NCBI GenBank assembly: GCA_007693585.1
Contig: REDH01000055.1
Coordinates: forward strand, 1-64,000
Reading direction: 5' to 3'
Length of the DNA stretch: 64,000 nucleotides
Source of the DNA: Deltaproteobacteria bacterium
Lineage (GTDB): Bacteria; Myxococcota_A; Bradymonadia; REDH01
Shown here: in pieces, positions 15,079 through 32,686 of the stretch
Layout: each line of letters starts with the position of its first letter
How positions within the stretch are numbered: the first letter of the stretch is position 1
The notes under the pieces: generated by a model
Told to the model about the DNA's origin: nothing
What the model saw: only the letters and a program-made list of their open reading frames with translations
Databases searched by the model: none
Translations under genes and position numbers: made by a program

Positions 15079-15099
15079 AATGAAAATCGTTTTCAATGC
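15079..15099. promoter_or_regulatory. Putative Fur box
   Basis: TAATGAAAATCGTTTTCAAT contains the near-palindrome TGAAAAT-C-GTTTTCA (15082-15096), 6 of 7 arm pairs, resembling the Fur consensus 7-1-7 arrangement. It is AT-rich in an otherwise GC-rich region. It lies between the iron-binding-protein gene (start 14929, minus) and the macrodomain gene (start 15286, plus), so it could control either or both. Confidence 0.7.
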
Positions 15100-15285
15100 A
15101 AGGCGGCGACTCCCGGTACTGGATTTTTGTGCCCCGATGAGGGATGGCCCCTCATGCCCGTCCCGCCCGGAACCCGCCTCGGCGACGGAACGGATGCCGC
15201 CGGGAAGCACGAACGGGAGTCCGGACCCGACCACGGCACCGCCCACGGCACCGCCGACCACAGCCCCCCGGGAGAGTACACCGAC

Positions 15286-15846
15286 ATGGAAGTCAAGATC
15301 GGAACCACGCGCATCGTGCTCCAGCAGGGAGACCTCGCGCAGCAGCGGGCAGACGCGCTCGTCAATGCGGCCAACAGCTCGCTCGAGCCGGGCGGCGGGG
15401 TGTGCGGCGCCCTTCACGCGGCTGCAGGCCCGGCGCTTGCCGAGGCCTGCGCCACCCACCGCGCGACGCACGGGCAGTGTGCCGTGGGCGATGCTGTGGC
15501 GACGGTTGCCGGTGACCTCCAGGCACAGCACGTGATCCACGCCGTGGGGCCGGTCTGGCATGACGGCCAGCGGGGCGAGAACATCCTGCTCGAGCGGGTG
15601 TGGCAGCGCACGCTCGCCCGGGCCCGTGAGATCGAGGCCCGCACGATCGCCTTTCCGGCGATCAGCACAGGGGTGTACGGATTCCCCGCGGAGCCCGCCG
15701 CGCTGATCGCGCTGAACGCCATCGTCCGGGACATCCAGACCCACGCCGGTTCGTTCGACGAGGTCCGCATCGTGCTCTTCGACGAGGACTCCCTGCGCGT
15801 CTGGACGACGGCGCTCGAAGAGGTCCAACGCACGATGACCGGCTAG
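15286..15846 (+). CDS. Macrodomain protein, probable ADP-ribose/O-acetyl-ADP-ribose hydrolase
   Basis: 186-residue single macrodomain. Family motifs are QGDLAQQRADALVNAANSS, then GGGVCGALH, and the phosphate-binding loop FPAISTGVYGFP. Such proteins bind ADP-ribose derivatives and often remove ADP-ribose from proteins or hydrolyse O-acetyl-ADP-ribose. The ATG at 15286 gives the standard YmdB-like N-terminus and has GGAGAG about 10 bp upstream; a longer frame with several earlier Met codons adds only low-complexity sequence. It diverges from the iron transporter across a Fur-like site. Confidence 0.9.
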   Translation: MEVKIGTTRIVLQQGDLAQQRADALVNAANSSLEPGGGVCGALHAAAGPALAEACATHRATHGQCAVGDAVATVAGDLQAQHVIHAVGPVWHDGQRGENILLERVWQRTLARAREIEARTIAFPAISTGVYGFPAEPAALIALNAIVRDIQTHAGSFDEVRIVLFDEDSLRVWTTALEEVQRTMTG

Positions 15847-15930
15847 GCCATACGCTCCGGATCCATGACGCGCTGCGGGATGGCATGGGAGATCCCACCG
15901 CCCGGGGACCCGCAGGGAGGGAACAGGGAC

Positions 15931-17280
15931 TCAGGCCGAACCGTCCCCGACGGCGCGTGGCTGACGGGCTTCCCGCAGTGCCCGCAACCGCTCGGTGGCG
16001 ACGGCGACCTTGATCTGGCCTGCAGCGATGAGCTCGGCGGCGACGAGCTCGACCTCGTCCCCCAGGGCGCCCGCCGTGGCCGCGACGGAACGCGCATGGA
16101 GCGCCATGTGCCCCTTCTGGATCCCCGTGGTGCCCAGCGCCTTGATGGCCGCGAGGTTCTGGGCCAGCCCGACGGACCCGAGGACGCAGGCGAGGTCGGC
16201 CGCTCCGCGAACGTCCAGCATCCGGTGCATGGCCTGCACCACGGGGTGCAGCCGGATCGGCCCCCCCACCGTGCCGACCGCCATGGGCATGTCGAGCACT
16301 CCCTCCAGACAGCCATCGGGCAGCAGGGTCCACCGCGCGAGCGGACCGTACGTTCCATCGGATGCAGCAAAGGCATGGGCTCCGGCCTCGATGGCACGCC
16401 AGTCCTGACCCGTGGCGATCGCCACCGCGTCGATGCCGTTCATGATGCCCTTGTTGTGGGTCGCCGCACGGTAGGGATCCTGCTCGGCAAAGACCGACGC
16501 GCGCTCGATCGCGCGGGCGACCTCGTCTCCCGGAAACCCGTGCCACGCGAGCAGGTGGGCGGGAACCCGGCAACTCGCACGCACACGCCGACGGTCATTG
16601 AGATTCGAGAGAATGCGCAGGAACACGCGACCACCGCTGAGCTTCTCGACACGCTCCGCAAGGCCCTCGGCGACGGTGTTGATCAGATTGGCACCCATGG
16701 CGTCGCAGGTGTCCACGTAGACATGCACGACGAGCATTTCCTCGTATCGCGACGCCGACCCCCGCGGACGAAGGTGGCGGACCTCGAGGTCGGTCGCCCC
16801 ACCTCCGCGACGGACCATACCGGGCTCCAGCGCATCCGCCTGCGCCAGCAGCTCCTGCCGGGCGGCGAGGATCCGCTCCCGGGCCACAACCGGGTCCGGC
16901 GAACCGACGACCTGGATCTGTGCCGTCATCACCGACCGGTCAGCACCCGCCTCGAAGCCGCCCGCCTGTCGGACGATGTTCGCGGCGTGGCTGACCGCCG
17001 CCACGATCGACGGTTCCTCCACGGCCATCGGCACGACCCGATCTCGGCCGTTGATCACGAAGTTGAGCCCGATCCCCAGGGGCAGCTCGAACCGGGCCAC
17101 GACATTCTCGATCATCGCCTCGGCAGTCCCGTCCTCGAGCAGCGGCGCGTCTCGCGACAGGAGCGCCGCATCCTCCTCGCTCAGGAAGCCGGCCTCGCGG
17201 AGCGCCTCGAGGCGCGCGGCCCGCGACATCCGGTAGAATCCCGGGATACGCGACGAACGTTCGCTGGAAGAAGTCGGCAT
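15931..17280 (-). CDS. mvaA: Class II HMG-CoA reductase
   Basis: 449 residues. It interconverts HMG-CoA and mevalonate. Class II assignment rests on the catalytic set: Glu in VEEPSIVA (residues 87-94), Lys in HNKGIMNG (275-282), Asp in ATGQDWRA (289-296) and His in KGHMALHAR (389-397), plus TCDAMGANLIN. It lacks the membrane region of class I enzymes. The other mevalonate genes lie 1.1 kb away on the plus strand, so it probably acts biosynthetically. The ATG at 17280 has no strong Shine-Dalgarno; an in-frame ATG at 17301 is an alternative. Confidence 0.94.
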   Translation of the reverse strand: MPTSSSERSSRIPGFYRMSRAARLEALREAGFLSEEDAALLSRDAPLLEDGTAEAMIENVVARFELPLGIGLNFVINGRDRVVPMAVEEPSIVAAVSHAANIVRQAGGFEAGADRSVMTAQIQVVGSPDPVVARERILAARQELLAQADALEPGMVRRGGGATDLEVRHLRPRGSASRYEEMLVVHVYVDTCDAMGANLINTVAEGLAERVEKLSGGRVFLRILSNLNDRRRVRASCRVPAHLLAWHGFPGDEVARAIERASVFAEQDPYRAATHNKGIMNGIDAVAIATGQDWRAIEAGAHAFAASDGTYGPLARWTLLPDGCLEGVLDMPMAVGTVGGPIRLHPVVQAMHRMLDVRGAADLACVLGSVGLAQNLAAIKALGTTGIQKGHMALHARSVAATAGALGDEVELVAAELIAAGQIKVAVATERLRALREARQPRAVGDGSA

Positions 17281-17476
17281 CGTGAGTCGGTGTATGCGCA
17301 TGCGGGACGTCCGTGCGTTCGGGAAGATCCCGCCCTCCAGCAGGCGGAGGACAGGTCCAGGCACGGATGGGATGCCGACGGCGCCCGCCGGGATGCATCC
17401 CTGCGGGGGAGATAAAGACCACGCCGGCGCCGGACGCAAGGCCCGCCAGCAGGACACGTTCCGGTTTCCGACCCGC

Positions 17477-18010
17477 TCAGCGCCCTGCGGACAGCGGCAG
17501 CTCGGGGGGACAGGGGGTCTCGGCCATGCGCAGGACCTCCTCGAACTCCTCGTCGGTGACCGGCACGATGGACAGCCGGTTGCCACGTCGAACAAGCGGC
17601 ATGTCGGCGAGACGCGGGTTGTCCCGCATCTGCGCGAGCGCCACGGGGCGCTCGAGACTGGCGATCCCCTGCACGTCCACCAGCACCCAGCGCGGATCCT
17701 CCTCGGTCGCCTTCTCGTCGAACGCTTCCGATCGCGGGTCCAGCGCGGAGCGATCGGGACGGGGCGCGCTGGCGACCCGAGCCAGACCGGCCACATGAGG
17801 CGGCTTCGTGTTCGAGTGATAGAAGAGGACCGGATCCCCGACCCTCATGTCATCCCGCATGAAGTTGCGCGCCTGATAGTTGCGAACGCCATCCCAGCCC
17901 TCCGTGCGCTCCGGACGCGACATCAGATCGTCGAACGAGAAGACGTCCGGCTCACTCTTCATCAACCAGCACCGCCCGGGACGGCCACTCCTTCCTGTTC
18001 GTTCCGTCAT
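17477..18010 (-). CDS. EVE-domain protein (THYN1-like)
   Basis: 177 residues, a single EVE domain. Landmarks are CWLMKSEPDVFSFDDL, GWDGVRNYQARNFMR, GDPVLFYHSN and a C-terminal RLSIVPVTDEEFEEVL. EVE domains are PUA-related and bind modified bases in DNA or RNA; bacterial ones sometimes occur in modification-dependent defence, but solitary ones like this are widespread. ATG 18010 is preceded by GGAGTGGAG and gives the family N-terminus. It ends 196 bp before the HMG-CoA reductase start, on the same strand. Confidence 0.9.
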   Translation of the reverse strand: MTERTGRSGRPGRCWLMKSEPDVFSFDDLMSRPERTEGWDGVRNYQARNFMRDDMRVGDPVLFYHSNTKPPHVAGLARVASAPRPDRSALDPRSEAFDEKATEEDPRWVLVDVQGIASLERPVALAQMRDNPRLADMPLVRRGNRLSIVPVTDEEFEEVLRMAETPCPPELPLSAGR

Positions 18011-18380
18011 CTCCACTCCGCTTGTTCGTCCCTGCACGGACACCCCTGCAGGGGTGCTTTCCGGGCCTCGGGCGCCTCCCCCGTCGTCACGCCCGCCGGA
18101 CACCTCCACCGCTCCTCCGGCTGCAGCGCCCACTCCCACGGGTGGAGAAGCCTTCCTCCGCACGGCGTCTTATTGATGCGATTGCCGAGGTGCAACATGG
18201 GTCGTTGCCGATGTGCATCGATAGCCACCGGTGAACATCTGCTCCGCACGCCCGGACGACGGGACGATCCGGAGCACGTTCCTGCTTCCCTCCGGCCCCG
18301 ACGCCCCCTATGGATGGCGCGTCCCGGTCACCGACCCGGCCCGTCGGACGGGTCCGCACCGCATCCCTTCGCCACAGCGC
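18011..18380. other. Divergent intergenic region between EVE gene and mevalonate operon
   Basis: This 370-bp stretch must hold promoters for the EVE gene (minus) and the mevalonate kinase operon (plus). A more AT-rich part near 18165-18235 is the likeliest promoter site, but I could not define a convincing -35/-10 pair. A 16-bp perfect palindrome lies at 18041-18056. No gene seen. Confidence 0.5.
18041..18056. repeat. 16-bp perfect palindrome upstream of EVE gene
   Basis: CACCCCTGCAGGGGTG is its own reverse complement. It is 30 bp upstream of the EVE start codon and would suit a dimeric regulator, or form a hairpin in the leader. Confidence 0.45.
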
Positions 18381-19319
18381 ATGAGCACGAGCCCCCGCAC
18401 CACCCTCCGCAGCGCGCCCGGCAAGGTGCTGCTGCTGGGCGAGCACGCGGTCGTCCACGGAGAGCCCGCCCTTGCGGCGGCGCTGGAGCTTGCCGTGGAG
18501 ATCCGGCACGAGCCGGGGAACGCCACGCTCCGTCTTCGGGACAGCGGCGGCGGCCTCGACACGCGACCCGGCCACCCCGACCGGGTGGGCCGCGCCCTGG
18601 AGGCCATCCTGCAGGCCCTGCCCCCGGAGGCCGGGTCGGGGGAGCTCACCGTCCGCTCGTCCATCCCGCCCGGGGCCGGTCTCGGGTCGAGCGGCGCCCT
18701 GTGCGCCGCCCTGGTCCGGGTCCTCGAAGCAGCCCACGACCTGCAGCTCGACCCGATGCAGCGACTGACGGCTGCGCTGGCCGGAGAGCGCGTGTTCCAC
18801 GGCAACGCATCCGGACTCGACCCCGCGGCCTCCCTCTTCGGCGGGCTCATCCGGTTCGTGCGGGGCACCCCCCCGTCCATTCGCCCCGTGACGATCGCGC
18901 GGCCCCTGGACCTCGTCGTGGCCCAGGTCGCGCCGGGCGCCGACACCCGCCGGATGGTGGACGACGTCCAGCGACGGATCGACTCCCTCCCGGCCGGCGG
19001 CCGCGCCATCCTGCGCACCATCGGCATCTGCGTGGATGCGGCCGTGGACTGCATCGGCGGCGGTGATCTCGACGGTCTCGGCCAGGCGATGGACATGAAC
19101 CACGGGCTGCTGACGAGCCTCGGGGTCTCCACGGAAGCACTCGACCACGCCGTGCGCCTCGCCCGGGCCCACGGCGCCGCCGGGGCAAAGCTCACCGGCG
19201 CCGGCGGCGGAGGCTGCATCGTCGCGCTCGCACGGCCCGGCCGACTCCCGGATGTTCGCTCCGCCCTCGCACCCGTCTCGTCCCTGGTCCACACGCTGAC
19301 CCTCCACCCCACCCCGTGA
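18381..19319 (+). CDS. mvk: Mevalonate kinase
   Basis: 312-residue GHMP kinase that phosphorylates mevalonate with ATP. Motifs: N-terminal APGKVLLLGEHAVVHGEPA, ATP loop PPGAGLGSSGAL, and C-terminal KLTGAGGGGC. The HAVVHG form is typical of mevalonate kinase rather than other GHMP members. ATG 18381 gives the family N-terminus; the frame is open upstream but the extension has no similarity. The stop overlaps or abuts the start of the decarboxylase gene, marking the first gene of a three-gene operon. Confidence 0.93.
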   Translation: MSTSPRTTLRSAPGKVLLLGEHAVVHGEPALAAALELAVEIRHEPGNATLRLRDSGGGLDTRPGHPDRVGRALEAILQALPPEAGSGELTVRSSIPPGAGLGSSGALCAALVRVLEAAHDLQLDPMQRLTAALAGERVFHGNASGLDPAASLFGGLIRFVRGTPPSIRPVTIARPLDLVVAQVAPGADTRRMVDDVQRRIDSLPAGGRAILRTIGICVDAAVDCIGGGDLDGLGQAMDMNHGLLTSLGVSTEALDHAVRLARAHGAAGAKLTGAGGGGCIVALARPGRLPDVRSALAPVSSLVHTLTLHPTP

Positions 19320-19324
19320 CCCCC

Positions 19325-20314
19325 ATGCGCGCAACCGCCATCGCCCACCCGAACATCGCCCTCGTGAAGTACTGGGGAAAGCGGGATTCGGTCCGAAATC
19401 TTCCGGCGGCCGGAAGCATCAGCCTCACGCTCGGCCCCCTGCACACGCGCACCGAGGTCGCCTTCACCGGCGCGCAGGGGCCGGACCGGGTCGAGCTCGA
19501 CGGGGAGGAAGCCGAGCCAGGCGCGGCCAGGCGCGTCACGGCAGTCCTCGATCTCCTCCGCCACGGCCGACCGGACCTCGGCGCCGCCCACGTCCGGAGC
19601 CGAAACGACTTCCCGACCGCAGCGGGCCTCGCATCCTCCTCGAGCGGCTTCGCCGCACTCGTCGTCGCCGCCGACGCTGCCGCCAGCCTCGGCCTCTCCC
19701 CTTCCGCCCTGAGCATCCTCGCCCGGCGGGGATCGGGCTCCGCCGCCCGATCCATCTTCGGGGGGTTCGTCCGGATGGAGTCCGGGGTGCGCGACGACGG
19801 GGAGGACGCCTTCGCCCGCCCCCTGGCTCCGGCCGACCACTGGCCACTCTCGGTGTGCATCGCCCTGACCACCGAGGGCGCGAAGAAGGTTCCCTCGACC
19901 CGAGGCATGGACCACACGGCGCAGACGAGCCCCTACCACCACGCCTGGATCGCGGACGTGGACCGGATGCTCCCCGAGGCCGAAGCCATCATCGCCGCAC
20001 GGGACTTCGACGGACTGGCCCGTCTCGCCGAGGCCAGCGCGCTCCGCATGCATGCCAGCGCCCTCGCCGCGGACCCCGGCGTACTCTACTGGAACGGGGC
20101 CACGGTGGAGTGCATGCATGCCGTCCGGCACCTTCGCAGCCAGGGGTGCCCGGCCTTCTTCACGATCGACGCCGGGCCGCACGTGAAGGTCTTCTGCGCG
20201 CCCGCCTCCACAGCCGCGGTCGAGGAGGCCCTGCGCTGCGTCCCCGGCGTCCGCGACGTCCTCCATGCCACACCCGCGGGCGACGCACGGGCGCTCGGCA
20301 CGGAAGACCGATGA
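19325..20314 (+). CDS. mvaD: Diphosphomevalonate decarboxylase
   Basis: 329 residues. It makes isopentenyl diphosphate from 5-diphosphomevalonate. The N-terminal ATAIAHPNIALVKYWGKRD is diagnostic, as is the ASSSSGFAALV phosphate loop and RRGSGSAARS. Asp in FFTIDAGPHVKV matches the family's catalytic region. ATG 19325 matches family starts; a GTG at 19316, overlapping the preceding stop as GTGA, is an alternative. The gene lies between the two kinases of the same pathway, with overlap at the 3' end, so coordinated translation is likely. Confidence 0.95.
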   Translation: MRATAIAHPNIALVKYWGKRDSVRNLPAAGSISLTLGPLHTRTEVAFTGAQGPDRVELDGEEAEPGAARRVTAVLDLLRHGRPDLGAAHVRSRNDFPTAAGLASSSSGFAALVVAADAAASLGLSPSALSILARRGSGSAARSIFGGFVRMESGVRDDGEDAFARPLAPADHWPLSVCIALTTEGAKKVPSTRGMDHTAQTSPYHHAWIADVDRMLPEAEAIIAARDFDGLARLAEASALRMHASALAADPGVLYWNGATVECMHAVRHLRSQGCPAFFTIDAGPHVKVFCAPASTAAVEEALRCVPGVRDVLHATPAGDARALGTEDR

Positions 20315-21312
20315 CCGCCCTGCGCGCCCCGGGCAAGGCCTTCCTGTGCGGCGAGTACGCCGTGCTCGACGGAGCGCCGGCGCTCGTCACCGCCCTCGAT
20401 GCCGGGGTGCGCGTGACGAGACTGCCGGGCGACCGCGGACGGATCCACAGCGACCTCGACCCCGAGCACCCCCTCGACCCGGAGGCCATGACGGACGGCA
20501 CCGACCCGCCACACCTCACCCTCCCGAGGGCGGTCCTGCGCACCCTCGACGAGGCACAGGCCCCGCGCGCCCCGCGCACCGATCTCCTCCTCGAGAGCCG
20601 CCTCACCCGCCGCGACACGAAACTCGGCCTCGGCTCCAGCGGAGCAGCCTGCGCCGCCCTGTGCTGCGCCCTGGTCCACCCGGACGTGAGCGACGACACG
20701 GTCGTCGCGCTCAGCCTCGCCGCCCACGACCGGTTCCAGGGCACCCGCGGCTCCGGGGGCGATGTCCTCGCCTCCCTCCACGGAGGCCTCCTCGCCGTCC
20801 GACACCGCGAAGCGACGCCGCTCCCCGTCCGCCCCACCGTCCGCTTTCTGCCGACCCACATCTCCGCCGACACGCGTCACATGATCCGGGAGCTCCGCCG
20901 CTGGCGACGCCGACACCCCGAGCGCTGGGCGCCGCATGCGCATCTTCTCGACGCCCTCGCGCACGACGCGGTGGACCACGCCATCCGCCGCGACGTCGCC
21001 GCACTCGCAGAGACCCTCGACCGGTACGGCCGGGCAGAAGAGTCCCTGACGGAAGACAGCGGCGTGCCCATCACGACCCCAGCCGTGCTCGCCCGAATGG
21101 GCGCCGCCCGGGCCGCGGGCTGGGCTGCCAAGCCATCCGGAGCCGGCGGAGGAGACCTGGTCGTGGCCATGGCTCCACCCGGCATCCCCTCCGAGCGAGC
21201 GGAGCAGGACCTCCACCAGGCACTCGCCAGAGACGGATTCGACGTCCTGCACGTGCGAGTCGCCGAGCACGGAGCCCTGCACGAACGACGGGCATTCCAC
21301 CGCCGATCCTGA
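20311..21312 (+). CDS. Phosphomevalonate kinase (GHMP type)
   Basis: 333-residue GHMP kinase that should convert phosphomevalonate to diphosphomevalonate. Motifs: ALRAPGKAFLCGEYAVLDGAP, then KLGLGSSGAACAAL, the RGSGGDVLASLHGG segment typical of ERG8/MvaK2-type enzymes, and SGAGGGD near the end. The assignment rests also on context: the upstream genes supply the other two steps. Its ATG overlaps the mvaD stop (ATGA at 20311-20314). With HMG-CoA reductase at 15931-17280, only acetoacetyl-CoA thiolase, HMG-CoA synthase and IPP isomerase are missing locally. Confidence 0.92.
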   Translation: MTALRAPGKAFLCGEYAVLDGAPALVTALDAGVRVTRLPGDRGRIHSDLDPEHPLDPEAMTDGTDPPHLTLPRAVLRTLDEAQAPRAPRTDLLLESRLTRRDTKLGLGSSGAACAALCCALVHPDVSDDTVVALSLAAHDRFQGTRGSGGDVLASLHGGLLAVRHREATPLPVRPTVRFLPTHISADTRHMIRELRRWRRRHPERWAPHAHLLDALAHDAVDHAIRRDVAALAETLDRYGRAEESLTEDSGVPITTPAVLARMGAARAAGWAAKPSGAGGGDLVVAMAPPGIPSERAEQDLHQALARDGFDVLHVRVAEHGALHERRAFHRRS

Positions 21313-21323
21313 AGGCCCGGCGT

Positions 21324-22238
21324 CTACGGCCCCCAGCCCTCCAGGCTGAACCGGTCCGGTTCCGGCTCCGGACAGCCGTCCGACGCACCGCACGCCATCG
21401 TTCGCCGGGCCGGGGTGTCCTCGGGCTCGCCACGCGCCACGAGAAGCCGGCACGCATCGGCTTCCGCGGCGTCATCACACCGCTGCCGCCACGCGTCCAC
21501 CGGCTGCATCTCCCGCGGCAGGACCGCACAGGCCGGCCAACGGGGCGCTTCGGTACACAGCCGGACCAGCAGGCCCTGCTCCTCGGCGTCCGCCTCGTCC
21601 TGCACCACGAGCCAGGCACAGGCCTCGAGCGTACCCTGCCCACAGGATGCGCGCCAGGTCCGGACCCCCTCCTCCACATCGCCCTGAAGCACGTCGAGAA
21701 TCCCCTGCCCGACGCAGGAGGCCAGCTCCCCCGTCGCGCACGCCTCGAACAACCCGGCCCGCGCGCTGTGACGAAGCGAAGCGGCCATCTCCGCACTCTC
21801 CGGCACGAGCACGCCATCCGCATACATCCGCGCCATCTCCAGGCATGCCCATGGGTCGTTCGCGAAGCAGCCCCGCTGATAGAGCTGGATCGCGCGCGCC
21901 GGCGAAGGCTCTGCCTCGAGGACGAGCCGAAGACCGTCCGACACCCGCCCATGGCGAGCCAGATCCCCGAGCAGGCGGCACGCACGCGCATCGCCGGCCT
22001 CGCAGTCCCCGGCCAGTTCGGCCTCGACCTCACCGGCTTCGCGGTAGTGCAGCACCAGGTCCGACGGGACCTCCGCGGTCGGGGCAACCCCGGACGCGGG
22101 ATCTGCCGATGACTCCACCGGATCAGGCGGGGCCGGCCCCTCTGCCACGTCCGTCGACCGAGGACCACACGGTCCGCAGGCCGTCATGGCCATCGCCATC
22201 GCCCCCCATACCCACAGCCGCATCGCGCGCACGCCCAT
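21324..22238 (-). CDS. Cys-rich Sel1-like repeat lipoprotein
   Basis: 304 residues with a signal peptide ending MTACGPC, a lipobox. The mature part has helical repeats resembling Sel1 repeats, such as CEAGDARACRLLGDLAR and CFANDPWACLEMARMYADG, with Cys pairs that suggest disulfides in the periplasm. Sel1-like repeats usually mediate protein contacts; the partner is unknown. ATG 22238 has GGGAGGAG upstream and was preferred to a longer frame. The start lies inside the 3' end of the helicase gene on the same strand, an overlap of 116 bp. Confidence 0.75.
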   Translation of the reverse strand: MGVRAMRLWVWGAMAMAMTACGPCGPRSTDVAEGPAPPDPVESSADPASGVAPTAEVPSDLVLHYREAGEVEAELAGDCEAGDARACRLLGDLARHGRVSDGLRLVLEAEPSPARAIQLYQRGCFANDPWACLEMARMYADGVLVPESAEMAASLRHSARAGLFEACATGELASCVGQGILDVLQGDVEEGVRTWRASCGQGTLEACAWLVVQDEADAEEQGLLVRLCTEAPRWPACAVLPREMQPVDAWRQRCDDAAEADACRLLVARGEPEDTPARRTMACGASDGCPEPEPDRFSLEGWGP

Positions 22239-24282
22239 CGCTCCTCCCGTATCCGAGATTCCCCCCGCACGGCTCGACACTGTCGCCGAACCCTGACCCG
22301 TTGGCAATCCCTCTCGGCCCGCCCCGCGCGTCCAACAGGGACAGCACCCGGAGCGCTGTGCGGACGCGCGGCCCGGACCCGGCGAATTCCCGGACCGGAA
22401 TCACGTCAAGCACCCTCTCGCGCCGGAGCGCGGCCCCGGCGGTCAGTGGACGACGCACATCCTCGAGCACCGCCATCCACAACCGCGCCTCATCCTGCGA
22501 ACCCGCCACCAGGGCCCGCCGCATTCCATCGGCCGCCCAGCGGACGGCGCGAGCCCCGGCGCAAGGCCGCAGGGCCTGCGCGTGCTCCACCGACGACGGC
22601 GAGAGCGGGCGCTCCGTCGCCTCCTCCGCCGCTCGGGACAGCGTTGCAGCGCTCGCCTCCTTGCGCGCGAGCCGCTCGATCGACCGGAGCCGACGCCCCA
22701 GCTCCCCGGACGGCACCCGCCAGACTTCCTCGATATGCGTCGGCCCCACGCCCCGCTGCACCCGGCCGACCCGCTGCTCCATCCGGGCCGGGGTCGCCGG
22801 CAGGTCCCAGTGCAGGACGGCGTCGACGCCAGGCAGGTCGATGCCCTCGCTCCACGCGGCCGTCAGCACGAAGACGTCCACCGGCACGCTGTCCGCGGAT
22901 GCCGATGGCCCATCGGCCGGCCGGGCCGGGTCCACGGCGGCCCCGCTCGATCCGTCCAGCAGGAGCGGGTGTTGCCGGCAGCCCGAGTCCGCCACGGGCA
23001 CCGCCGCAGGGCGCTCCAACGCCACTGCGCCGGGCACGGCACATGCCCACCGCCTCAACGCATCGCGCACCGTCCGGGCCCGGACGGGCGAGCGCATCCC
23101 CGGCAGCGCGCCGCTTCCCGCCGAGAGATACGCCACACGCAGCCGGCCCGGCGGAGAGCGCCAGAGCCCCCGGGCCGTGTCGACGAACTCGGTGAAGACA
23201 ACCACGGGGCGCCCCGAGCGTACGGTGGAGGTGAGCCAGCGGACCGCCGCCTCGTCCGGGAGGGTTCCCCGCGCAGCCCAGGTCGCGCGGACGCGACGCA
23301 GCTCCCTCATGGCCACGGTGCACGCCGCGGCGATGCGCGCCAGCCCGCCCTCCCCATGCACCGCTCCGCGATCCACAGCATGCCCCGGAAGAAGTCCCGG
23401 AAGCCACTCCTGCACCGGGGCGCCGGCGCTGTGCTCGGCGGCGAACAGTCTTCGCCAGTCCGTCGGGGAGAGGTGTCTGCCCTCCTGCGCAGCGGTGCGC
23501 CGGCGCGCCACGAAGCGCTCCAGGCGACCGAGGGTGGCGATCACGGCCCACGGCGAGGATGCGGCGCGGGTGAGCACGACACGCTCCACCAGACGCTCCG
23601 GGCCGTCGAGCGCCCTGGCGAGCAGCGGCACGAGTGTCGCGAGCGCGCCGGAGGCCGCCTCGTCCGCTCCCGCCGGAAGCCGGTGTCGACGGATCTCGAC
23701 CAGCGGGCCGCCGAAGGCCCGGGCTTCCCCGGGCCAGCGGCGCCGAAGCCCCGCCACCGAGCGACGCACGCTCTGACGCCGCAGCCGGTCGAGGGGTGTT
23801 TCGGCGTCACCACCCGGGTCACACAGCCCGAGCAGCGCGGTCGCGTCCTCGACCCGGTTGTGGACGGGGGTTGCCGTGACGAGGAGCACCCGGGCAGCGT
23901 GCGCAATCAGCCGCGAAAGCGTGCGCCATCCGCGGGTGGCGGGATTGCGGAAGTGGTGTGCCTCGTCGACGATCAGCGTGCAGCCCGATGGGATCAGCGG
24001 ACAGCGGCGTCGCAGGATCCCGTGGCTGATCACCCGCGTGGCGGACCACCCCCAGGCCTCCAGTTCGCCCAGCCACTGCTCGCGCAGCGCCGCAGGCGCG
24101 ACGACGACGACGTCCGGAGCCTCGGTGTCGTGACCGACGTAGCCATGCGCAGCATACAGGGCGGTCCGGGTCTTTCCGAACCCGGGTGGATCCGCGAGCA
24201 GCGCCCAGCCGCGTTCGTCGAGGCGGTGCCGAAGCGCTTCGGCACCCGTGCGCTGCCAGGGAGCGAGGGAGACCGCGCTCAT
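22123..24282 (-). CDS. SNF2/DEAH-type helicase paired with a DNA methyltransferase
   Basis: 719-residue superfamily 2 helicase. Walker A is PPGFGKT (32-38), motif II DEAH (106-109), motif III VTATP (135-139), motif V region SEGIDLPGVDAV (478-489) and motif VI QRVGRVQR (503-510). The spacing and the N-terminal APWQRTGAEAL (a Q-motif analogue) point to an SNF2-like translocase rather than a strand-separating helicase. ATG 24282 overlaps the methyltransferase stop by 4 bp (ATGA), so the proteins are co-translated. The last 40 or so residues are Gly-rich, overlap the next gene and look like non-conserved read-through. No nuclease motif seen. Confidence 0.85.
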   Translation of the reverse strand: MSAVSLAPWQRTGAEALRHRLDERGWALLADPPGFGKTRTALYAAHGYVGHDTEAPDVVVVAPAALREQWLGELEAWGWSATRVISHGILRRRCPLIPSGCTLIVDEAHHFRNPATRGWRTLSRLIAHAARVLLVTATPVHNRVEDATALLGLCDPGGDAETPLDRLRRQSVRRSVAGLRRRWPGEARAFGGPLVEIRRHRLPAGADEAASGALATLVPLLARALDGPERLVERVVLTRAASSPWAVIATLGRLERFVARRRTAAQEGRHLSPTDWRRLFAAEHSAGAPVQEWLPGLLPGHAVDRGAVHGEGGLARIAAACTVAMRELRRVRATWAARGTLPDEAAVRWLTSTVRSGRPVVVFTEFVDTARGLWRSPPGRLRVAYLSAGSGALPGMRSPVRARTVRDALRRWACAVPGAVALERPAAVPVADSGCRQHPLLLDGSSGAAVDPARPADGPSASADSVPVDVFVLTAAWSEGIDLPGVDAVLHWDLPATPARMEQRVGRVQRGVGPTHIEEVWRVPSGELGRRLRSIERLARKEASAATLSRAAEEATERPLSPSSVEHAQALRPCAGARAVRWAADGMRRALVAGSQDEARLWMAVLEDVRRPLTAGAALRRERVLDVIPVREFAGSGPRVRTALRVLSLLDARGGPRGIANGSGFGDSVEPCGGNLGYGRSDGRARDAAVGMGGDGDGHDGLRTVWSSVDGRGRGAGPA

Positions 24283-27200
24283 GGCCAGCCGATGCGCTCG
24301 CCGGCCCGGCGCTCCCCGAGGTGAACAAGGAGCCTGTGCGGCGCAGCGGCAAGGGCGAGTGCATCGAGAACGATCGCGTCGATGGCCGCACCCGGGGCGC
24401 CGTCGTCGACGGCCTGGTCGAGGGAGATGACCCACGACGGTGTCCGGACGTCGTCGCCGAGAAGCACCGGTGGAAAGGGAACCGACCCGACCGCGTGGGC
24501 CTGAAAGCGGAAGTGGCCTCCCAGCGCGGGCTCGGCGCGGGCCTGCAGCAGGAGCTGAATCGGCGCACTCGCGAGCCAGGCCGCCCAGCGTCGCGCCCGC
24601 CGCGGGTCGGGAGCGCCCACCCCGTACAGGGTGTTGAGCACGAGCGGCCCCCCGGCGCGGACGGGCTCGAGGACGTGGGGACACAGGGTCGGCCCGATGT
24701 CGGCCCAGACCACCCGGTGACCCAGCAACTCCGGACTCACCCGGAAGACGGACCAGATGGGCGTATCCGGTCGGCTGTCGGCGCGGCGGCGCAGCCGGGC
24801 GGCGTGGGGCTCGAGCCAGGCCATCGCCTCGGCCGACGGCAACGCGAGTGGATCTCCGGTCACGGGATCATGGGCGAAGAGGAGCCGCGACGCGGGGACG
24901 CCGTCGCGGTCCCGTCCGCGCAACACGGGACGACACTCCGAGAGGGGAGGAGCAGGGTCGAGGAAGAGCGCGTTCGCGCCGGTCTTGATCCCCATGCGGA
25001 CGGGCAGGGAGCGGGAGAGGGGAGGCGCAGCGGCCTGAAGTGCTCGGAGGGCCTGCATCTCCTGTCGCCCGAGGAGGGGCCAGGGATCGGACGGGGCACC
25101 GTCGAGTCCCAGGTCCTCGGGATGCACCAGACGGGCGGGAGCGCGGAGCCCGTGGAGGCGGACGGTCCGCTTCACCGCAGGCTCGTTCACGCGAGCGCGC
25201 GGCCGGCGACGGTCGGCCATGAGGATGGCCGGGTACACGGAGGCGTGGAAGAGACCCTGGCCGGTGCGGGAGAGATCCTCGATCTGGACGAGATCGGTGC
25301 GCCGGACGAGCCCCTCTCGGAGGGCCGCTCCATAGGGGGCGCGCAGCAGCTTGGCGGGGATCACGTACGCGAGGGTTCCCCCGGGACGCAACCACTGAAG
25401 CGCCCGCTGCACGAACGCGACGCTCAGGTCGGCCTGAACGCCGAAAGCGGAGCGGTTGCCCGGACGCCCGGCGGGCCGGCCGGATTCATCGCGGCCGCGC
25501 ATCCAGGGATAGAGGTCGAGCACGAGTGCGCGCTCGTGGGGTTCGATGGCCGACAGCCGCACCCACGGGGGGTTCCCCAGAACGAGGTCGAAGCCGCCGG
25601 AGGCGAGAACATCGGCGAAGTCCACCGCCGCGTCGAAGGGCAGGTCCCGCTCGTCACTCCAGCAGTGCCTTCTGTGCTCGGCCTCCTCGATCGCGGTCTC
25701 GATCGCTGCGATCCGATGCCTGACGCCGGCGCTCGGTCCCGGGTGCTCCCCGAACAGACCCGGACACTCGGCAGAGCGGCGAAGCTGGTCGAGCCGCGCC
25801 CGATCGCGCCGCAGCAGTGCGCTCCAGCGGTGGTCATGGAGCGCCCGTGCGAGGGCCCGGCGCTCGGCGACGATTCGGGTGCGCGCCTCGCCTCTGGCCA
25901 GCCCCCATCGACGCTGCACATCCTTCCACTGGGCGACGAGTGCGTCCGGCAGCGGGACGTGCTCGGCGGCGGCGGCGGCGGCGGGGGACCACAGGGCGTT
26001 TCCCTGCCGGATGCGGTGGTCCAGGTTGGGGAGTCCCGGCAGCCGCTCTCCCGGCCCGGTACGGCTGACGAGCAGGAGCCAGAGCCGCAGGGTACACAGG
26101 GTGCTCGCCGTGGCGGAGCGGTCCACCCCGTGGACCACGTCCCGCAGCACCATCGAGATCGCGTGGGCCTCGCTCCGGGGGGTCGGCTCCCCGTCGTCGA
26201 GCGCGTCTCCTGCCGCCTGTGCAGCCAGCCAGAGCAACCGTCCGCACCAGGCAGCGGCGCTGACCAGGAAGGCGCCGGAGCCGCATGCGGGGTCGACGAT
26301 GCGCAGGGCAAGAATCCGGCGCGCGAGCCAGGCTGCGTTCTCTCGGCCGATGACCTCACGCAGCGCGTCGGGGGTTGCGGCCAGCCAGGCCCGCAGGCCC
26401 TCCACGGACGGCTCGGCCCCCGGGAGGCGCAGATGGCGCGCGAGCGCCTCGACGACGAGCTGGTCGACGAGTCCGGGAGGGGTATAGAAGGCGCCGTCGC
26501 GGCTGCGGTCCGGCCGCTCCATCCACGCCTCGAAGACCTGGCCGAGCATCTCCGGGTCGATGCACCGTCCGTCCCCCGCTTCTCGGGCGGTGAAGCGGTA
26601 GCGTCCGAGGAGGTCGAGGAACAGGCGGCGGAGCGGCTCGTCTGGGACATCGACGGGCACGTCGACGAGGGTGCCCGGATCGAAGAGCGCGCCACCGAGG
26701 ACGGGGAGCGTCGCGAGCCTGGCGGGCCGATCGTCTCCGAGGCCAGCGAGGGCGCGACACAGGGGCACCCATCGGCGTCGCCACAGTTGGTCGACCCCGC
26801 TTTCGAGCAGCCAGCTTCGCAGAAGCTCCGGGTGTTCACCCAGCGCGCCCCGCTCCTGCAGGAAGAGCAGCAGCAGCAGTCGGCTCACCAGCTCGAGCGC
26901 ATGACGATGACGCAGGCCGTCGTCGCTCCTTCCCGGTTCGTCCTCCCCTTGTCGACGGCAGTGGCCATGCGCTTCGCCCTGTCCGCCTTCCGACCAGGTC
27001 ATGCTCTTCTCGATCTCCCGCAGGTGCCCGCCAACCTCGCGCAGGAACCTCCGGGTCAGGTCACTGCGACCCAGGACCGTCCAGGCGTTCATCGCAGCCG
27101 CACGGATGCGGCCGGCCGGTGTTTCACGTGAAACATCCGTCCACGTCGGTGGAGAGGCGAGGAGCGTGGACTGATCCGGCTGGAGATCCCGCGGCGTTCC

Positions 27201-27563
27201 GCGCCACACCCGCCCACTTCCATCCCCCTGGATCGCCGTCCCCACCACCACCTCCGATGCATGGCGACACCACCCGACGAGGTACGCCATCGCCCCCGGC
27301 GCCTCCGCAGCCATGCGCTGAAGAAGATGCTCGAGCGCGTGCGCCGACGGCGCGCGATCCCACTCCGTGTACATCGCGTTCACCGGCCCCCGGGGTTCGA
27401 GCACGAAGACACGCGCGCCCAGAAGACTGCGCGCCGTGTGCGCCACCAGGGTCGGGGCCGAAGACACCTCCACCCACAACGCATCCTCCCCGAGCCACCC
27501 CTGCAACCAGCCCCGCGCATCGAACCCCCCTGTCTCGCCGCGCGTCTGCGTCCGCTGCCCCAT
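24279..27563 (-). CDS. Large Eco57I-type N6-adenine DNA methyltransferase
   Basis: 1094 residues. The helical N-terminal region includes RLLLLLFLQERG. A GAFYTPPGLVDQLV segment follows, then SAM motif I DPACGSGAF (424-432) and catalytic motif IV NPPW (664-667), both standard for adenine-N6 methylation. The C-terminal third is probably a target-recognition region (GIKTGANALFLDPAPP, then a Pro- and Arg-rich stretch). Such size and order occur in type IIG/IIL enzymes, PglX of BREX and DrmMI of class 1 DISARM. I see no PD-(D/E)xK nuclease motif. ATG 27563 has GGAGG with good spacing. The helicase follows with a 4-bp overlap. Confidence 0.85.
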   Translation of the reverse strand: MGQRTQTRGETGGFDARGWLQGWLGEDALWVEVSSAPTLVAHTARSLLGARVFVLEPRGPVNAMYTEWDRAPSAHALEHLLQRMAAEAPGAMAYLVGWCRHASEVVVGTAIQGDGSGRVWRGTPRDLQPDQSTLLASPPTWTDVSRETPAGRIRAAAMNAWTVLGRSDLTRRFLREVGGHLREIEKSMTWSEGGQGEAHGHCRRQGEDEPGRSDDGLRHRHALELVSRLLLLLFLQERGALGEHPELLRSWLLESGVDQLWRRRWVPLCRALAGLGDDRPARLATLPVLGGALFDPGTLVDVPVDVPDEPLRRLFLDLLGRYRFTAREAGDGRCIDPEMLGQVFEAWMERPDRSRDGAFYTPPGLVDQLVVEALARHLRLPGAEPSVEGLRAWLAATPDALREVIGRENAAWLARRILALRIVDPACGSGAFLVSAAAWCGRLLWLAAQAAGDALDDGEPTPRSEAHAISMVLRDVVHGVDRSATASTLCTLRLWLLLVSRTGPGERLPGLPNLDHRIRQGNALWSPAAAAAAEHVPLPDALVAQWKDVQRRWGLARGEARTRIVAERRALARALHDHRWSALLRRDRARLDQLRRSAECPGLFGEHPGPSAGVRHRIAAIETAIEEAEHRRHCWSDERDLPFDAAVDFADVLASGGFDLVLGNPPWVRLSAIEPHERALVLDLYPWMRGRDESGRPAGRPGNRSAFGVQADLSVAFVQRALQWLRPGGTLAYVIPAKLLRAPYGAALREGLVRRTDLVQIEDLSRTGQGLFHASVYPAILMADRRRPRARVNEPAVKRTVRLHGLRAPARLVHPEDLGLDGAPSDPWPLLGRQEMQALRALQAAAPPLSRSLPVRMGIKTGANALFLDPAPPLSECRPVLRGRDRDGVPASRLLFAHDPVTGDPLALPSAEAMAWLEPHAARLRRRADSRPDTPIWSVFRVSPELLGHRVVWADIGPTLCPHVLEPVRAGGPLVLNTLYGVGAPDPRRARRWAAWLASAPIQLLLQARAEPALGGHFRFQAHAVGSVPFPPVLLGDDVRTPSWVISLDQAVDDGAPGAAIDAIVLDALALAAAPHRLLVHLGERRAGERIGWP

Positions 27564-27716: not shown

Positions 27717-29090
27717 TCAGCGGGCGCCGCTCCCACCGGGAAGATCCGACCGGGCGGGATCCTCCACCACGGGATCCAGCGCCACCGAGACCGGCCCCCC
27801 CTCCACATCAAGGTACCGCACCAGCTCGGAGAGCCGCGGACGGCCATCGTGATCGCGCAGAAGAACCGGGCGCTGCATGCGCCCCCACGGACACACCCGC
27901 CCCACCCCGAGACGGGCCAGCAGCGGCAGGAGCTGCGCCCGACAGGACGGTCCAGACACCAGCCCACAGGTGGACATCCGCCCCCGCCACGGCCTCAACG
28001 CCCGCTCGAGCTCCGCCGAGGTCTCCCAGGGCACGAGGTGCAGCAACCGGGCCGGCGGCGCCAGATGCGCCTCGCACGTCTCGTGCAGGATCACCGTGAA
28101 CGACGCACCCGTCCGCGCACAACCGAGAAACTCGCTCGCACCGCGTAGCTGCATCACCGCCGACGCCGTCTCCGGTGCGAGCACGCCCCGCGGCAGCCGC
28201 TGCTCCCAGGCCGGAAACCCCTCCGTCGCCAGCGCATCCGCCAGGTCCTCGAGCGCCACCGCCGCACCCCGATGCACGAAGACCGTCTGTGGACTCATGC
28301 AGCCACGCTGATCCAGAAGGCTCGCATCCAGCGCCAGCGCTCGCGCAAGACGCCCCACAGCACTCCCCACCCCCTCCTCCGCCGGACCCAGCACCGCGAA
28401 CGACACCCGACTGCCATGCCCGCGAAAACGCGTCCCACTCCCCGGACACAGCCGACGCACCGCCTCCACCGAGGCGTCCGACCCCCACGCCACCACCGCG
28501 TCCGCACGCGCGAACACCTCCCGCGTCACCGCATCCTCCCCCGACGGCCAGTGCAGGACCTCCACCGCATCCGCCAGCTCCGGCGCACACACCGCCAGCG
28601 GCTCCACCAGCGCGCGCACCCCATCCTCCGCCCCGAACCCCGGACGCAGCAGCACCGCAGCCCCGATCAGCAGCGCCTCCACCACCCCCTCCAGCACCAG
28701 CGCCGGAACCGTCCCCGGCAGCACCTGCACCACCAGCTCGGGAGGCACCAGTGCACGCTCCACCGCATGCTCCGCCGTCGCCAGCGACTCCAGCGGGCGC
28801 TCCAGCCCCCGCCCCAGCTCCAGCCGTACCCACTGCCGAAGGCCCGACGCCGAGAGCTGGCGCGCCAGATGCGCCACCGTCACCGCCACCATCCGGGGAT
28901 GCAGCCCGCAGGACCGCGCCACCCGACCCACCCGATCCACCCGCTCGGCGTCCGCCATCGGCGCCGACCAGTAGGCGCCGAACGCCGCAAGCCCCTCCAC
29001 ACGCTGCTCGAGCGACCGCGCGCGAAGACCCGCTGCCCGGGAGCGAAGGACCTCCGCACACGACACCGCTCTTCCGATACCCTCCCTCAT
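27717..29090 (-). CDS. luxC: LuxC-like acyl-CoA/acyl-protein reductase
   Basis: 457 residues. LuxC reduces fatty acyl groups to long-chain aldehydes with NADPH. It has the aldehyde-dehydrogenase-like layout with the acyl-accepting Cys in DQRGCMSPQT. The N-terminus helices resemble the family. ATG 29090 follows GGGGGAG and overlaps the luxE stop by 4 bp (ATGA), so LuxE and LuxC are made together. No luxA, luxB or luxD is present, so this supplies aldehyde or alcohol for something other than light. Confidence 0.88.
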   Translation of the reverse strand: MREGIGRAVSCAEVLRSRAAGLRARSLEQRVEGLAAFGAYWSAPMADAERVDRVGRVARSCGLHPRMVAVTVAHLARQLSASGLRQWVRLELGRGLERPLESLATAEHAVERALVPPELVVQVLPGTVPALVLEGVVEALLIGAAVLLRPGFGAEDGVRALVEPLAVCAPELADAVEVLHWPSGEDAVTREVFARADAVVAWGSDASVEAVRRLCPGSGTRFRGHGSRVSFAVLGPAEEGVGSAVGRLARALALDASLLDQRGCMSPQTVFVHRGAAVALEDLADALATEGFPAWEQRLPRGVLAPETASAVMQLRGASEFLGCARTGASFTVILHETCEAHLAPPARLLHLVPWETSAELERALRPWRGRMSTCGLVSGPSCRAQLLPLLARLGVGRVCPWGRMQRPVLLRDHDGRPRLSELVRYLDVEGGPVSVALDPVVEDPARSDLPGGSGAR

Positions 29091-30154
29091 GACTCCCCCG
29101 CCGGACGCTCCAGCTCCTCCACCGCCAGCGAACACCCCCGGGGCATCGCCCCCTCCCGACGACCACACAGGAACAACCGCCCATCCCGCAAATACCCCCG
29201 ATCCGAGGTCTGCACCGCGACCACCGTCTCGACATTCGCCAGGTCCACCATCCGCACCAGACCCTCCTCCCCCTCGCCACACGGCTCCAGGGTCTCCGGA
29301 TCCACCACCGAGACCCGAGCCCATCCCGGCGCCTGAAGCCCGCGGCTCTGCGGCGTGAAGGACGCGTCCACGGCCTCCGACGACCACAGCTGGCTCGACC
29401 ACTCCGTCATGCCGTACTCCACATGCTGGCGAACCGCCGACACACCGGTGACCTCGACCAGCGCCTCACGCAGGACCGCCGCATCCACCACCCGACGGCG
29501 ACCCTTGAACCCCCCGGTGGACACGATCCGACTCCCCGGCGGCAGCCGCTCCAGGAACCCCGACTCCAGCGCGTCCGCCAGCGCGAACGTCGTCGCCAGC
29601 AGCAACACCGGCCGCCCACACCGTCGGGCCAGCCCGAGCCCCTCGCGCAACGCCTCCGGACGCACGCCCTCCGGGCCGAGCGCCCACGGAGCCCGGGGCG
29701 GAGCCAACCGCTCGCGAAAGCGCGTCACCATGTGGGTCAGTGAGCTGTCCCCGGCCGCCCCCGGATCGAAGACCAGCGGGAGGATCACCGGCCGCTCCTC
29801 CCGAAGCGGCAGCATCCGGCAGGCATGCCGCCAGGCCGATGCGTCATACGCCGCGAGCGAGAGGCGAACGTGCTCGCCGCGACGACCGGACGTCGTGCCG
29901 CTCGTCCGAAAGACCGCGACCGGCTCACTCTCCCCGCTGACCAGACGGGCGCGACGAAACGTCTCCGTGGGCACGGCGGGGATCGACGCCGCATCGAACG
30001 GGCCGTCGGGATCGAAACCGCGACGCGCCCAGAAACGCGCGAGGCCCGGCACGTGCCGGGCCTGATAGCGAACCACCGCACCGAGCACCGTCTCGAAAGA
30101 CTCCCCCCCGGTGATCACCCCGATCACCCGCTGCTCCAGCGCTGGCCATTCCAC
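29087..30154 (-). CDS. luxE: LuxE-like acyl-protein synthetase
   Basis: 355 residues. LuxE activates fatty acids as acyl-AMP and passes them to a Cys near its C-terminus, then to LuxC. The adenylation motif is [14 protein letters not shown]. Other landmarks are [13 protein letters not shown] and the C-terminal [12 protein letters not shown], whose Cys matches the acyl-carrying residue. The GTG at 30154 was chosen over the longer open frame because AAGGAGGGAGG lies 8 bp upstream and the length equals the family's. First gene of the luxE-luxC unit, opposite to ssb. Confidence 0.9.
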
Positions 30155-30199
30155 TGCGACCTCCCTCCTTCGCCGGCACGACCCCCGGCGGAGCCCCGC

Positions 30200-30228
30200 A
30201 GGGTAGCCGCGGCGCAGAAAATCTGCAA
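30200..30228 (-). promoter_or_regulatory. Putative luxE promoter with overlapping palindrome
   Basis: Reading the minus strand, TTGCAG (30228-30223) and TACCCT (30205-30200) are separated by 17 bp, upstream of the luxE GTG at 30154. The palindrome GCAGAAAATCTGC at 30214-30226 overlaps the -35 side and could be an operator. The -10 match is weak. Confidence 0.35.
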
Positions 30229-30361
30229 CGCTGGGACCGGCACGCCGATACGGGACCGGGCCCCGGGCCGTGGTGACGCCGGCCACCAACCCCGCCCCAG
30301 CCCACAAAGGACCCCCGGGTGGCCAGACCATCCGCCCCACACCGCACAGGAGAAGTATCCC

Positions 30362-30811
30362 ATGGCATCCGTCAACAAGGTCATCCTCGTAGGCAACCTC
30401 GGCCGCGATCCCGAACTCCGACAGACCAACTCCGGTCAGTCCGTGTGCGAGTTCTCCCTCGCCACGAGCGAGCGATACACCGACGGCGGCGGCAACCGCC
30501 AGGAACGCACCGAGTGGCATCGGATCATCGTCTGGGGCCGCCAGGGCGAGAACGCCGCCAAGTACCTCTCCAAGGGCCGTCAGGTCTACATCGAGGGCCG
30601 GATCCAGTACCGCGACTGGGAAGACAAGGACGGCAACAAGCGAACGACCACCGAGGTCGTCGCGCAGACCGTCCAGTTCCTCAGCGGTGATGGCGGCGGC
30701 CGCAGCACCGGACGACAGGGGCCGCCGCCCCCGGACGACACGGACGCTCCGGCCTTCGACTCCCCCGGGAGCAGCTCCGGCTCCTTCGAGGACGACGAGA
30801 TCCCGTTCTGA
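30362..30811 (+). CDS. ssb: Single-stranded DNA-binding protein
   Basis: 149-residue SSB. The OB fold starts [20 protein letters not shown] and includes [16 protein letters not shown] and [17 protein letters not shown] Gly/Pro/Ser-rich tail ends in the acidic tip EDDEIPF, the protein-interaction motif. It coats ssDNA during replication, repair and recombination. The ATG is preceded by AGGAGA. It is monocistronic and diverges from luxE; a hairpin follows. Confidence 0.97.
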
Positions 30812-30829
30812 GGCGCCCCCGAACGCACG

Positions 30830-30863
30830 AACGCCCCGACGTCACACGCGACGCCGGGGCGTT
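30830..30863. terminator. Hairpin between convergent ssb and etfA
   Basis: AACGCCCCG (30830-30838) pairs with CGGGGCGTT (30855-30863), a perfect 9-bp stem with further pairing in the loop. It is 19 bp after the ssb stop and 36 bp after the etfA stop on the other strand, so it can serve both as a terminator. The U-tract is poor (TTGTCGTT). Confidence 0.65.
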
Positions 30864-30899
30864 GTCGTTCCAGCGGGGGCGAAGGCCTCGCCAGGGAAA

Positions 30900-31856
30900 T
30901 CAGAGCTTGCTCGTCAGCTCCGGAACCGCCTTGAACGCATCCTCGACCAGACCGAAATCCGACACCTGGAAGATCGGCGCCTCGGGATCCTTGTTGATGG
31001 CCACGATCACCTTCGAAGCCTTCATGCCCGCGAGGTGCTGGATCGCGCCCGAGATCGCCACCCCGATGTAGAGGTTCGGCGCGATGATCTTGCCGGTCTG
31101 GCCAATCTGCCAGTCGTTGGGGGCATAGCCCGAATCCACGGCCGCGCGGCTCGCACCGACCGCCGCGCCAAGCTTGTCCGCGAGCTCCTCGAGCATTCCG
31201 AAGGCCTCGCCGCTCTTCAGGCCGCGGCCTCCCGCGATGACCACGTCCGCATCCGTCAGGGGCGGACGATCCGTCTTCACCTGGTCGAACGAGACGAAGG
31301 CGGCGTTGGTCGCCGCTCCGCTCGAGACGGAGATCGTCTCCACCGAGACGGCCGCTCCCTCCGCCGGCGCCTCGAACGCCGTCGTGCGCACGGTGACCGC
31401 CGTGATGTCCGTGTGGCTCGTCACCCGCGCGATGAGGTTGCCCGACCAGATGGGGCGCTTGTACACCACGTCCCCGTCCACCTCGGCCACGTCGATCGCG
31501 TCGGAAACGAATCCCGCGTCCAGCAGCGCCGCCACCCGCGGAAGGAAGTCCTTGCCCGTCGTCGTCGACGGGGCACAGACCACCGTCGCCCCCACGCTCT
31601 TCGCAACCTCGACCACCGCCGGCGCATAATTCTCCGCCAGATAGTCGGCGTACTGCGCGCCATCGACGTACAGCACCCGGCTCGCGCCGAAACGCGAGGC
31701 GGCCTCCGCCGCACCCGACGCACCCGATCCCAGGACAAGGACCACCACCTCGCCCCCGGTCGCCGCCGCCGCCTGCTTCGCGAACCCGATCGTCGGAAGG
31801 GTCGCGCTCTTGAGCTCCCCACCGAGCTGCTCTGCCACAACGAGAATCGTACTCAT
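30900..31856 (-). CDS. etfA: Electron transfer flavoprotein alpha subunit
   Basis: 318 residues. With EtfB it carries electrons from acyl-CoA and other dehydrogenases to the quinone pool. The C-terminal FAD domain shows [15 protein letters not shown], then [23 protein letters not shown] (in parts), and [21 protein letters not shown]. The start at 31856 has AAGGAGGC upstream and matches the family N-terminus STILVVAEQ. It follows etfB after a 68-bp gap on the same strand. Confidence 0.97.
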
Positions 31857-31924
31857 GTCTTCTGCCTCCTTGAGCGCAGGGCGCCGGGCCCGAAGGCCGG
31901 CCGCCGTGCGCACTCCGTGATTGC

Positions 31925-32686
31925 TCAGAGAACCTTGGCCTTGTTCTTCAGTCGATCGATGAGGGCATCCACGCTGTCCACGATCTCGCCCGCCTCCCGC
32001 TGAGGAGGGAGCTCGTACCCGAGAATCTCGATCGCCGGCTCGTCCAGATCGATGTCCGCATCGAGATCGTCCGGATCGATCACCTCGAGCGGCTTCTTCT
32101 TGGCCTTCATGATCCCGGGAAGCGATGCGTATCGGGGCTCGTTGAGCCGGAGATCCGCGGTCACCACCGCCGGCAACGTGAGCTTCACGTCACTCGTGCC
32201 GCCATCGACCTCGCGACCGACCGTGACCGTGTCCCCATCCACCTCGCACTTGAACGCGAACGTGCCCTGCGCAAACCCCGTGAGCGCAGCCAGCATCTGC
32301 CCCACCGCATTGCTCTCGGAGTCCACCGCGAGCTTGCCCATCAGCACCATGCCCGGTTCCTCGCGCTCGACCACCTTCGCCAGCAGCTTCGCCTTCGTCA
32401 GCGAGTCCAGACGATCGGCCTCGTCGGTCTCGACCAGGATGCCCCGGTCCGCACCCATCGCCAGCGCCGTCCGGATCTCCTTCTGCGCATCGCCGCTGCC
32501 GATGCACACCACAACGATCTCCGAGGCCGCGCCGGACTCCTTGAGCCGGACCGCCTCCTCCACGCTGTACTCGTCGAAGTAGTTGAGCTTGTAGTCGAGA
32601 ATGCTCGGATCGAGCTGGGCATCCCCGGTGAGCTTCACCTTGACCTCCGGGTCCACGACCCGCTTCACCATTGCCAGAATCTTCAT
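31925..32686 (-). CDS. etfB: Electron transfer flavoprotein beta subunit
   Basis: 253 residues. It binds AMP and pairs with EtfA. N-terminus MKILAMVKRVVDPEVKVKL; other landmarks are NYFDEYSVEEAVRLKE, ALAMGADRGILVET and ALTGFAQGTFA. Normal length. It lies 73 bp downstream of the TetR gene, with no obvious terminator between, so tetR-etfB-etfA looks like one operon, probably tied to fatty-acid oxidation. Confidence 0.97.
   Translation of the reverse strand: MKILAMVKRVVDPEVKVKLTGDAQLDPSILDYKLNYFDEYSVEEAVRLKESGAASEIVVVCIGSGDAQKEIRTALAMGADRGILVETDEADRLDSLTKAKLLAKVVEREEPGMVLMGKLAVDSESNAVGQMLAALTGFAQGTFAFKCEVDGDTVTVGREVDGGTSDVKLTLPAVVTADLRLNEPRYASLPGIMKAKKKPLEVIDPDDLDADIDLDEPAIEILGYELPPQREAGEIVDSVDALIDRLKNKAKVL

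Follow-up and report, generated by a model that had tools for sequence, protein, structure and literature searches.

Adenine methyltransferases (MTases) encoded together with SNF2-type motors are usually filed as anti-phage systems. SNF2 proteins translocate along double-stranded DNA using ATP, and class 1 DISARM (DrmMI and DrmD together with DrmA, DrmB and DrmC) joins an SNF2-like helicase of this kind with an Eco57I-like MTase. Another such arrangement, detected by the PADLOC model C3a139 with REase_MTase_IIG models, pairs an Eco57I/type IIG-like MTase with an SNF2 protein of about 1070–1190 amino acids bearing an N-terminal PLDc_2 nuclease of the HKD (PLD) type; here the SNF2 gene usually comes first and the distribution is patchy. 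In BREX-related (BR) systems, an N6-MTase and an SNF2 helicase are accompanied by a DUF499 ATPase and a nuclease (PMC12839542). Orphan adenine MTases can be part of the core genome, as is CamA, which every sequenced genome of its species has (PMC8187626).

Here we describe an MTase-SNF2 pair in a window of 64,000 nucleotides (the whole stretch of DNA that was analysed) from a member of the Bradymonadia, a class of Myxococcota that includes facultative predators (PMC11509652; PMC7188933). The features at the locus are:

24279 to 27563, minus strand: Eco57I-type (gamma-class) N6-adenine DNA methyltransferase of 1094 amino acids (Pfam Eco57I; motifs DPACGSGAF and NPPW)
22123 to 24282, minus strand: SNF2-family double-stranded DNA translocase of 719 amino acids, without an N-terminal HKD domain (Pfam SNF2-rel_dom and Helicase_C)
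24279 to 24282, minus strand: 4-bp ATGA stop/start overlap of the two genes, indicating translational coupling
21324 to 22238, minus strand: lipoprotein-like gene that begins within the 3' end of the SNF2 reading frame (overlap of about 116 nt)

The sequence-only reading of this locus, that an MTase and an SNF2 protein of these lengths overlap by 4 bp, was borne out, and the catalytic motifs of both are intact. The Pfam matches were to Eco57I (2.5e-16) for the MTase and to SNF2-rel_dom (1.5e-12) and Helicase_C (6e-9) for the SNF2 protein, which carries GFGKT (Walker A), DEAH, TATP and QRVGRVQR. Both reading frames are tracked by the GC-by-codon-position pattern, which weakens only over the final ~100 nt of the SNF2 gene, where the lipoprotein-like gene overlaps it, and the stretch following SNF2 motif VI measures 217 amino acids in the window copy against a family range of 160–377. 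Conservation of the active sites extends to the homologues described below: NPPW, YTP and a loose motif I were found in 39 of 39 MTases (37 with the strict motif I), and G.GKT, DEA, TATP and QRxGRxxR in 31 of 31 SNF2 proteins. Two homologues have one in-frame TAG each, the MTase of genome G036 (locus L066, 5025–8126) and the SNF2 protein of G030 (L035, 9478–13308), representing either an assembly error or a real stop. Other Pfam matches among 35 MTases were to TaqI_C (10), MmeI_hel (18) and DUF7814 (29), and the C-terminal part of the MTase is predicted to be a recognition domain. AF2 models (mean pLDDT 78 for the MTase and 68 for the SNF2 protein) support an MTase fold for the former and a two-lobe SNF2 core for the latter. 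Foldseek placed CamA as the best neighbour of the MTase model, along with BrxX/PglX, M.BseCI and MmeI, and Chd1, SNF2h and FANCM near the SNF2 model, with ZorD lower down.

The pair lies between mevalonate-pathway genes and LuxC/LuxE/ETF genes, and its surroundings in the window are metabolic territory. Downstream of the SNF2 gene, the lipoprotein-like gene is followed by genes for mevalonate kinase, diphosphomevalonate decarboxylase and a phosphomevalonate-kinase-like GHMP protein on the other (plus) strand; this cluster (14983–21312) also includes HMG-CoA reductase on the minus strand, and a macro-domain protein adjoins it. An open reading frame at 20086–21453 on the minus strand was rejected as an operon member, as the region is that of the phosphomevalonate-kinase-like gene on the plus strand. 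Upstream of the MTase, the minus strand from 27717 to 32686 encodes a LuxC acyl-CoA reductase, a LuxE-like protein and, further upstream, electron-transfer flavoproteins. None of the eight window neighbours scanned matched a PADLOC defence model.

Of 57 Bradymonadia genomes searched, 39 have the MTase: 39 of the 41 in five families (f1–f5), at one copy per genome, but none in families f6 and f7 (16 genomes), so that it is not indispensable to the class as a whole. Extending a profile search to the 284 genomes of the phylum returned high scores in the same 39 only, along with three distant matches at 258–286 bits. Among the carriers of the pair are cultured predators, putatively Bradymonas sediminis FA350 (G007) and Persicimonas caeni YN101 (G019). 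One of the two f1–f5 genomes that lack the MTase, G020, carries a fragment of an SNF2 gene at the end of a contig. Family alignments performed better than the window SNF2 protein, which, used as a single sequence against the genome contigs, retrieved only one unrelated SNF2 protein because the window copy is divergent.

The sequence-only reading had called for a survey of the two-gene order and of defence islands. The order proved to be kept: among the 33 loci with at least 1 kb of contig past the MTase, 32 have the SNF2 gene directly downstream on the same strand, most commonly with an overlap of 1 or 4 bp, and the sole exception (L037, 3015–5195 and 7728–10766) has the two genes divergent and 2.4 kb apart. 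In six further loci the contig ends too soon past the MTase; three of these genomes (G017, G038 and G005) have an SNF2 match on another contig, and G025 and G037, whose contigs end near the MTase, gave no clear SNF2 match elsewhere. No defence island was seen around the pair: in the window its neighbours are metabolic, and the flanks change between families. All-against-all comparison of the open reading frames in the fetched flanks showed the pair alone to be common to the families, other neighbours being shared within a family or genus only, and revealed no third gene conserved across loci; a third large cluster was read as antisense reading frames inside the MTase itself. In the B. sediminis and P. 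caeni genomes, the neighbours that Pfam could name, among them Alr/Mur ligase, AMP-binding, Sel1, histidine kinase and M50 peptidase, include no defence genes.

Several lines of evidence indicate that the pair has descended with its hosts. In the MTase tree each family forms a clade, with four changes where four is the minimum. Tree distances correlate with those of RpoB at r = 0.93 for both the MTase (30 genomes) and the SNF2 protein (24 genomes), and MTase distances correlate with SNF2 distances at r = 0.94; in a permutation test, 0 of 2000 permutations reached the observed values. Within f2 alone, the correlations are 0.88 (MTase-RpoB), 0.78 (SNF2-RpoB) and 0.94 (MTase-SNF2). The recognition domain of the MTase diverges with distance, so that its target may not be conserved; its identity tracks that of the catalytic domain (r = 0.89), and this comparison contained no outliers of the kind that domain swaps would produce. 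The pair is under purifying selection between close relatives (dN/dS 0.13–0.28) and is single-copy, near-universal and vertically inherited in f1–f5. Type I HsdR and the HKD-nuclease-SNF2 protein (C3a139), unlike the pair, are patchy in these families, occurring in 15 and 5, respectively, of 39 genomes sampled, of which 37 have the MTase of the pair.

We propose, with about even confidence, that the pair is a nuclease-less relative of an ATP-dependent restriction-modification (R-M) pair that became vertically fixed as a core methylation-translocation module, with marking of the host genome as its likeliest role. The MTase and SNF2 protein would act as one functional unit, produced in a coupled manner and probably forming a complex on DNA, in which the MTase would recognize a defined site and methylate adenine, while the SNF2 motor would move along DNA or clear bound proteins away to make sites accessible, or would read the methylation state. 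The resulting marks on the host genome could serve an epigenetic or chromosome-maintenance role comparable to that of orphan MTases such as CamA. Given the lack of a detectable nuclease and the vertical fixation, marking or maintaining the host chromosome is the likeliest benefit, and a housekeeping role of the pair is what we infer.

A different function that we think unlikely, yet a serious rival given how fast both proteins evolve and that defence proteins are the closest relatives known for them, is a clade-wide defence that does not cut, with the MTase marking self and the SNF2 motor blocking replication or transcription of unmodified incoming DNA without cleavage. The same idea has been proposed for BREX, the class contains predators (PMC7188933; PMC11509652), which constantly meet foreign DNA and might retain the pair for that purpose, and the nearest homologues in the defence-model libraries are type IIG, DrmMI and PglX for the MTase and DrmD, DpdE and HKD+Snf2 for its partner. 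Mean tree distances of MTase and SNF2 exceed those of RpoB three- to fourfold, and this faster evolution also fits an arms race. A defence function is, however, difficult to reconcile with vertical, single-copy and near-universal inheritance, with the lack of recognition-domain swapping and of a defence island, and with the patchiness of other R-M families in the same genomes. Somewhat more doubtful is the idea of a methylation-coupled DNA remodeller, in which a permanent MTase-SNF2 machine, descended from a restriction system or akin to one but lacking the nuclease, would write N6-methyladenine chromosome-wide while the motor remodels or clears protein-bound DNA, providing a clade-wide inherited epigenetic layer.

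Relatives of the pair outside the Bradymonadia were sampled, beyond the phylum, in plasmid, phage and IMG/VR collections. Outside the clade, related MTases adjoin SNF2 proteins of about 1070–1190 amino acids, and an N-terminal PLDc_2 domain was present in 11 of 11 of these partners scanned (three from genomes and eight from IMG/VR contigs), whereas Pfam found it in 0 of 31 SNF2 proteins of the Bradymonadia family; an HxKx4D regular expression missed the HKD domain of the outside proteins, which the Pfam PLDc_2 model detected. Plasmid and phage collections contained only distant homologues, the best plasmid matches having 24–30% identity. On one plasmid, from Deinococcus radiophilus (L190), a related MTase gene precedes genes for a DUF262 protein and a helicase, with several toxin-antitoxin pairs nearby. 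In a combined, unrooted MTase tree, the Bradymonadia family and one IMG/VR contig (L156) form a clade apart from all HKD-associated MTases. This contig is the sole clade member found outside Bradymonadia genomes in the collections sampled; its locus (5239–9739) is MTase-first, and its SNF2 protein, which is cut by the contig end, has no PLDc_2. The ancestor may have been a two-gene R-M-like system with an HKD nuclease on the SNF2 protein, which would have been lost in the Bradymonadia lineage; as the tree has no root, loss rather than gain is an inference.

The fused HKD nuclease of these relatives raises the question of whether the pair might instead be an R-M system with its nuclease gene at another place in the genome, the enzyme acting in trans, or with a nuclease hidden in a degenerate terminal domain. 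The sequence-only reading had seen no nuclease motif, and neither Pfam nor PADLOC found a nuclease domain in either window protein; nor did Pfam in the consistent set of family members, a single weak Cas3-like_C_2 match in one SNF2 protein being to the helicase-C region. In the structure predictions, which had been suggested as a way to find a hidden nuclease, MTase residues ~1–150 and SNF2 residues 563–719 are poorly modelled, and an enzymatic domain there might have escaped detection. Pfam detected no type IIG-style PD-(D/E)XK nuclease on the MTase, and the N-termini in f2, a region of low model confidence, have no conserved acidic/Lys motif; no conserved acidic/Lys/His pattern of a nuclease-like kind occurs in the MTase N-terminus or the SNF2 C-terminus even within this one family, where W, R, G, L and P make up most of the conserved positions. 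In the host genome, the PLD-type matches come from two stretches of one open reading frame, which lies on another contig. Together with the lack of a conserved third gene in the flanks, these results make a concealed or separately encoded nuclease improbable.

The sequence-only suggestion of a stripped-down DISARM-like or BREX-like system fared worst. Partial matches exist, and to that extent the model searches agreed with it: the PADLOC DrmMI model matched part of the MTase only (3e-21), with IIG models scoring about equally, and the DrmD model matched part of the SNF2 protein (2e-15). With the NCBIfam DrmD model, however, the score was 74.5 bits where the cut-off is 610, PglX models gave at most 30 bits against cut-offs of 400–900, and the score was likewise far under the cut-off for DpdE. 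That the pair is a class 1 DISARM (drmMI-drmD) or BREX remnant is highly improbable, as the likeness is the generic SNF2/Eco57I similarity for which other families score about as well or better, no DrmA-, DrmB- or DrmC-like match occurred among the window neighbours scanned (their absence having been noted from the outset), the two matches to an MZB domain that the host genome contains lie on contigs other than that of the pair, and metabolic surroundings, core vertical inheritance, intact motifs and conservation across families also speak against the degraded remnant of a larger island. The alternative of a stand-alone modification-translocase system agrees with the conserved two-gene unit and the lack of a detected nuclease.

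Literature searches found no description of an MTase-SNF2 pair without a nuclease as seen here. What is new is an apparently nuclease-free, core and vertically inherited pair of this kind; related HKD-bearing pairs are already known. The pair resembles a built-in machine for marking the genome more than it does a typical mobile defence system, and automated defence annotation may mislabel such genes. Vertical fixation across five families suggests that a restriction-type module can join the core genome, and it raises the question of what role an SNF2 motor plays for a DNA methyltransferase when nothing gets cut.

Sequence comparison of both proteins suggests that the nearest relatives of the pair are the HKD-SNF2 + Eco57I MTase pairs rather than DISARM. 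As in those pairs, the Bradymonadia SNF2 gene adjoins a gene for an Eco57I MTase of ~1100 amino acids and related sequence; it differs from them in that no nuclease was found, the MTase comes first and the distribution is clade-wide. Class 1 DISARM shares the combination of enzymes, but no DrmA/B/C-like gene was found near the pair, which is set apart further by its DrmD score and its core inheritance. BREX provides, in BrxX (PglX), one of the nearest solved structures to the MTase model; it has PglZ and BrxC, whereas the Bradymonadia MTase has no conserved partner beyond SNF2. The best structural match, CamA, has no nuclease partner, and like a core orphan MTase the Bradymonadia enzyme is near-universal, single-copy and vertical in its lineage; CamA, however, stands alone and in one species, while the Bradymonadia MTase has an SNF2 motor as its partner and spans five families.
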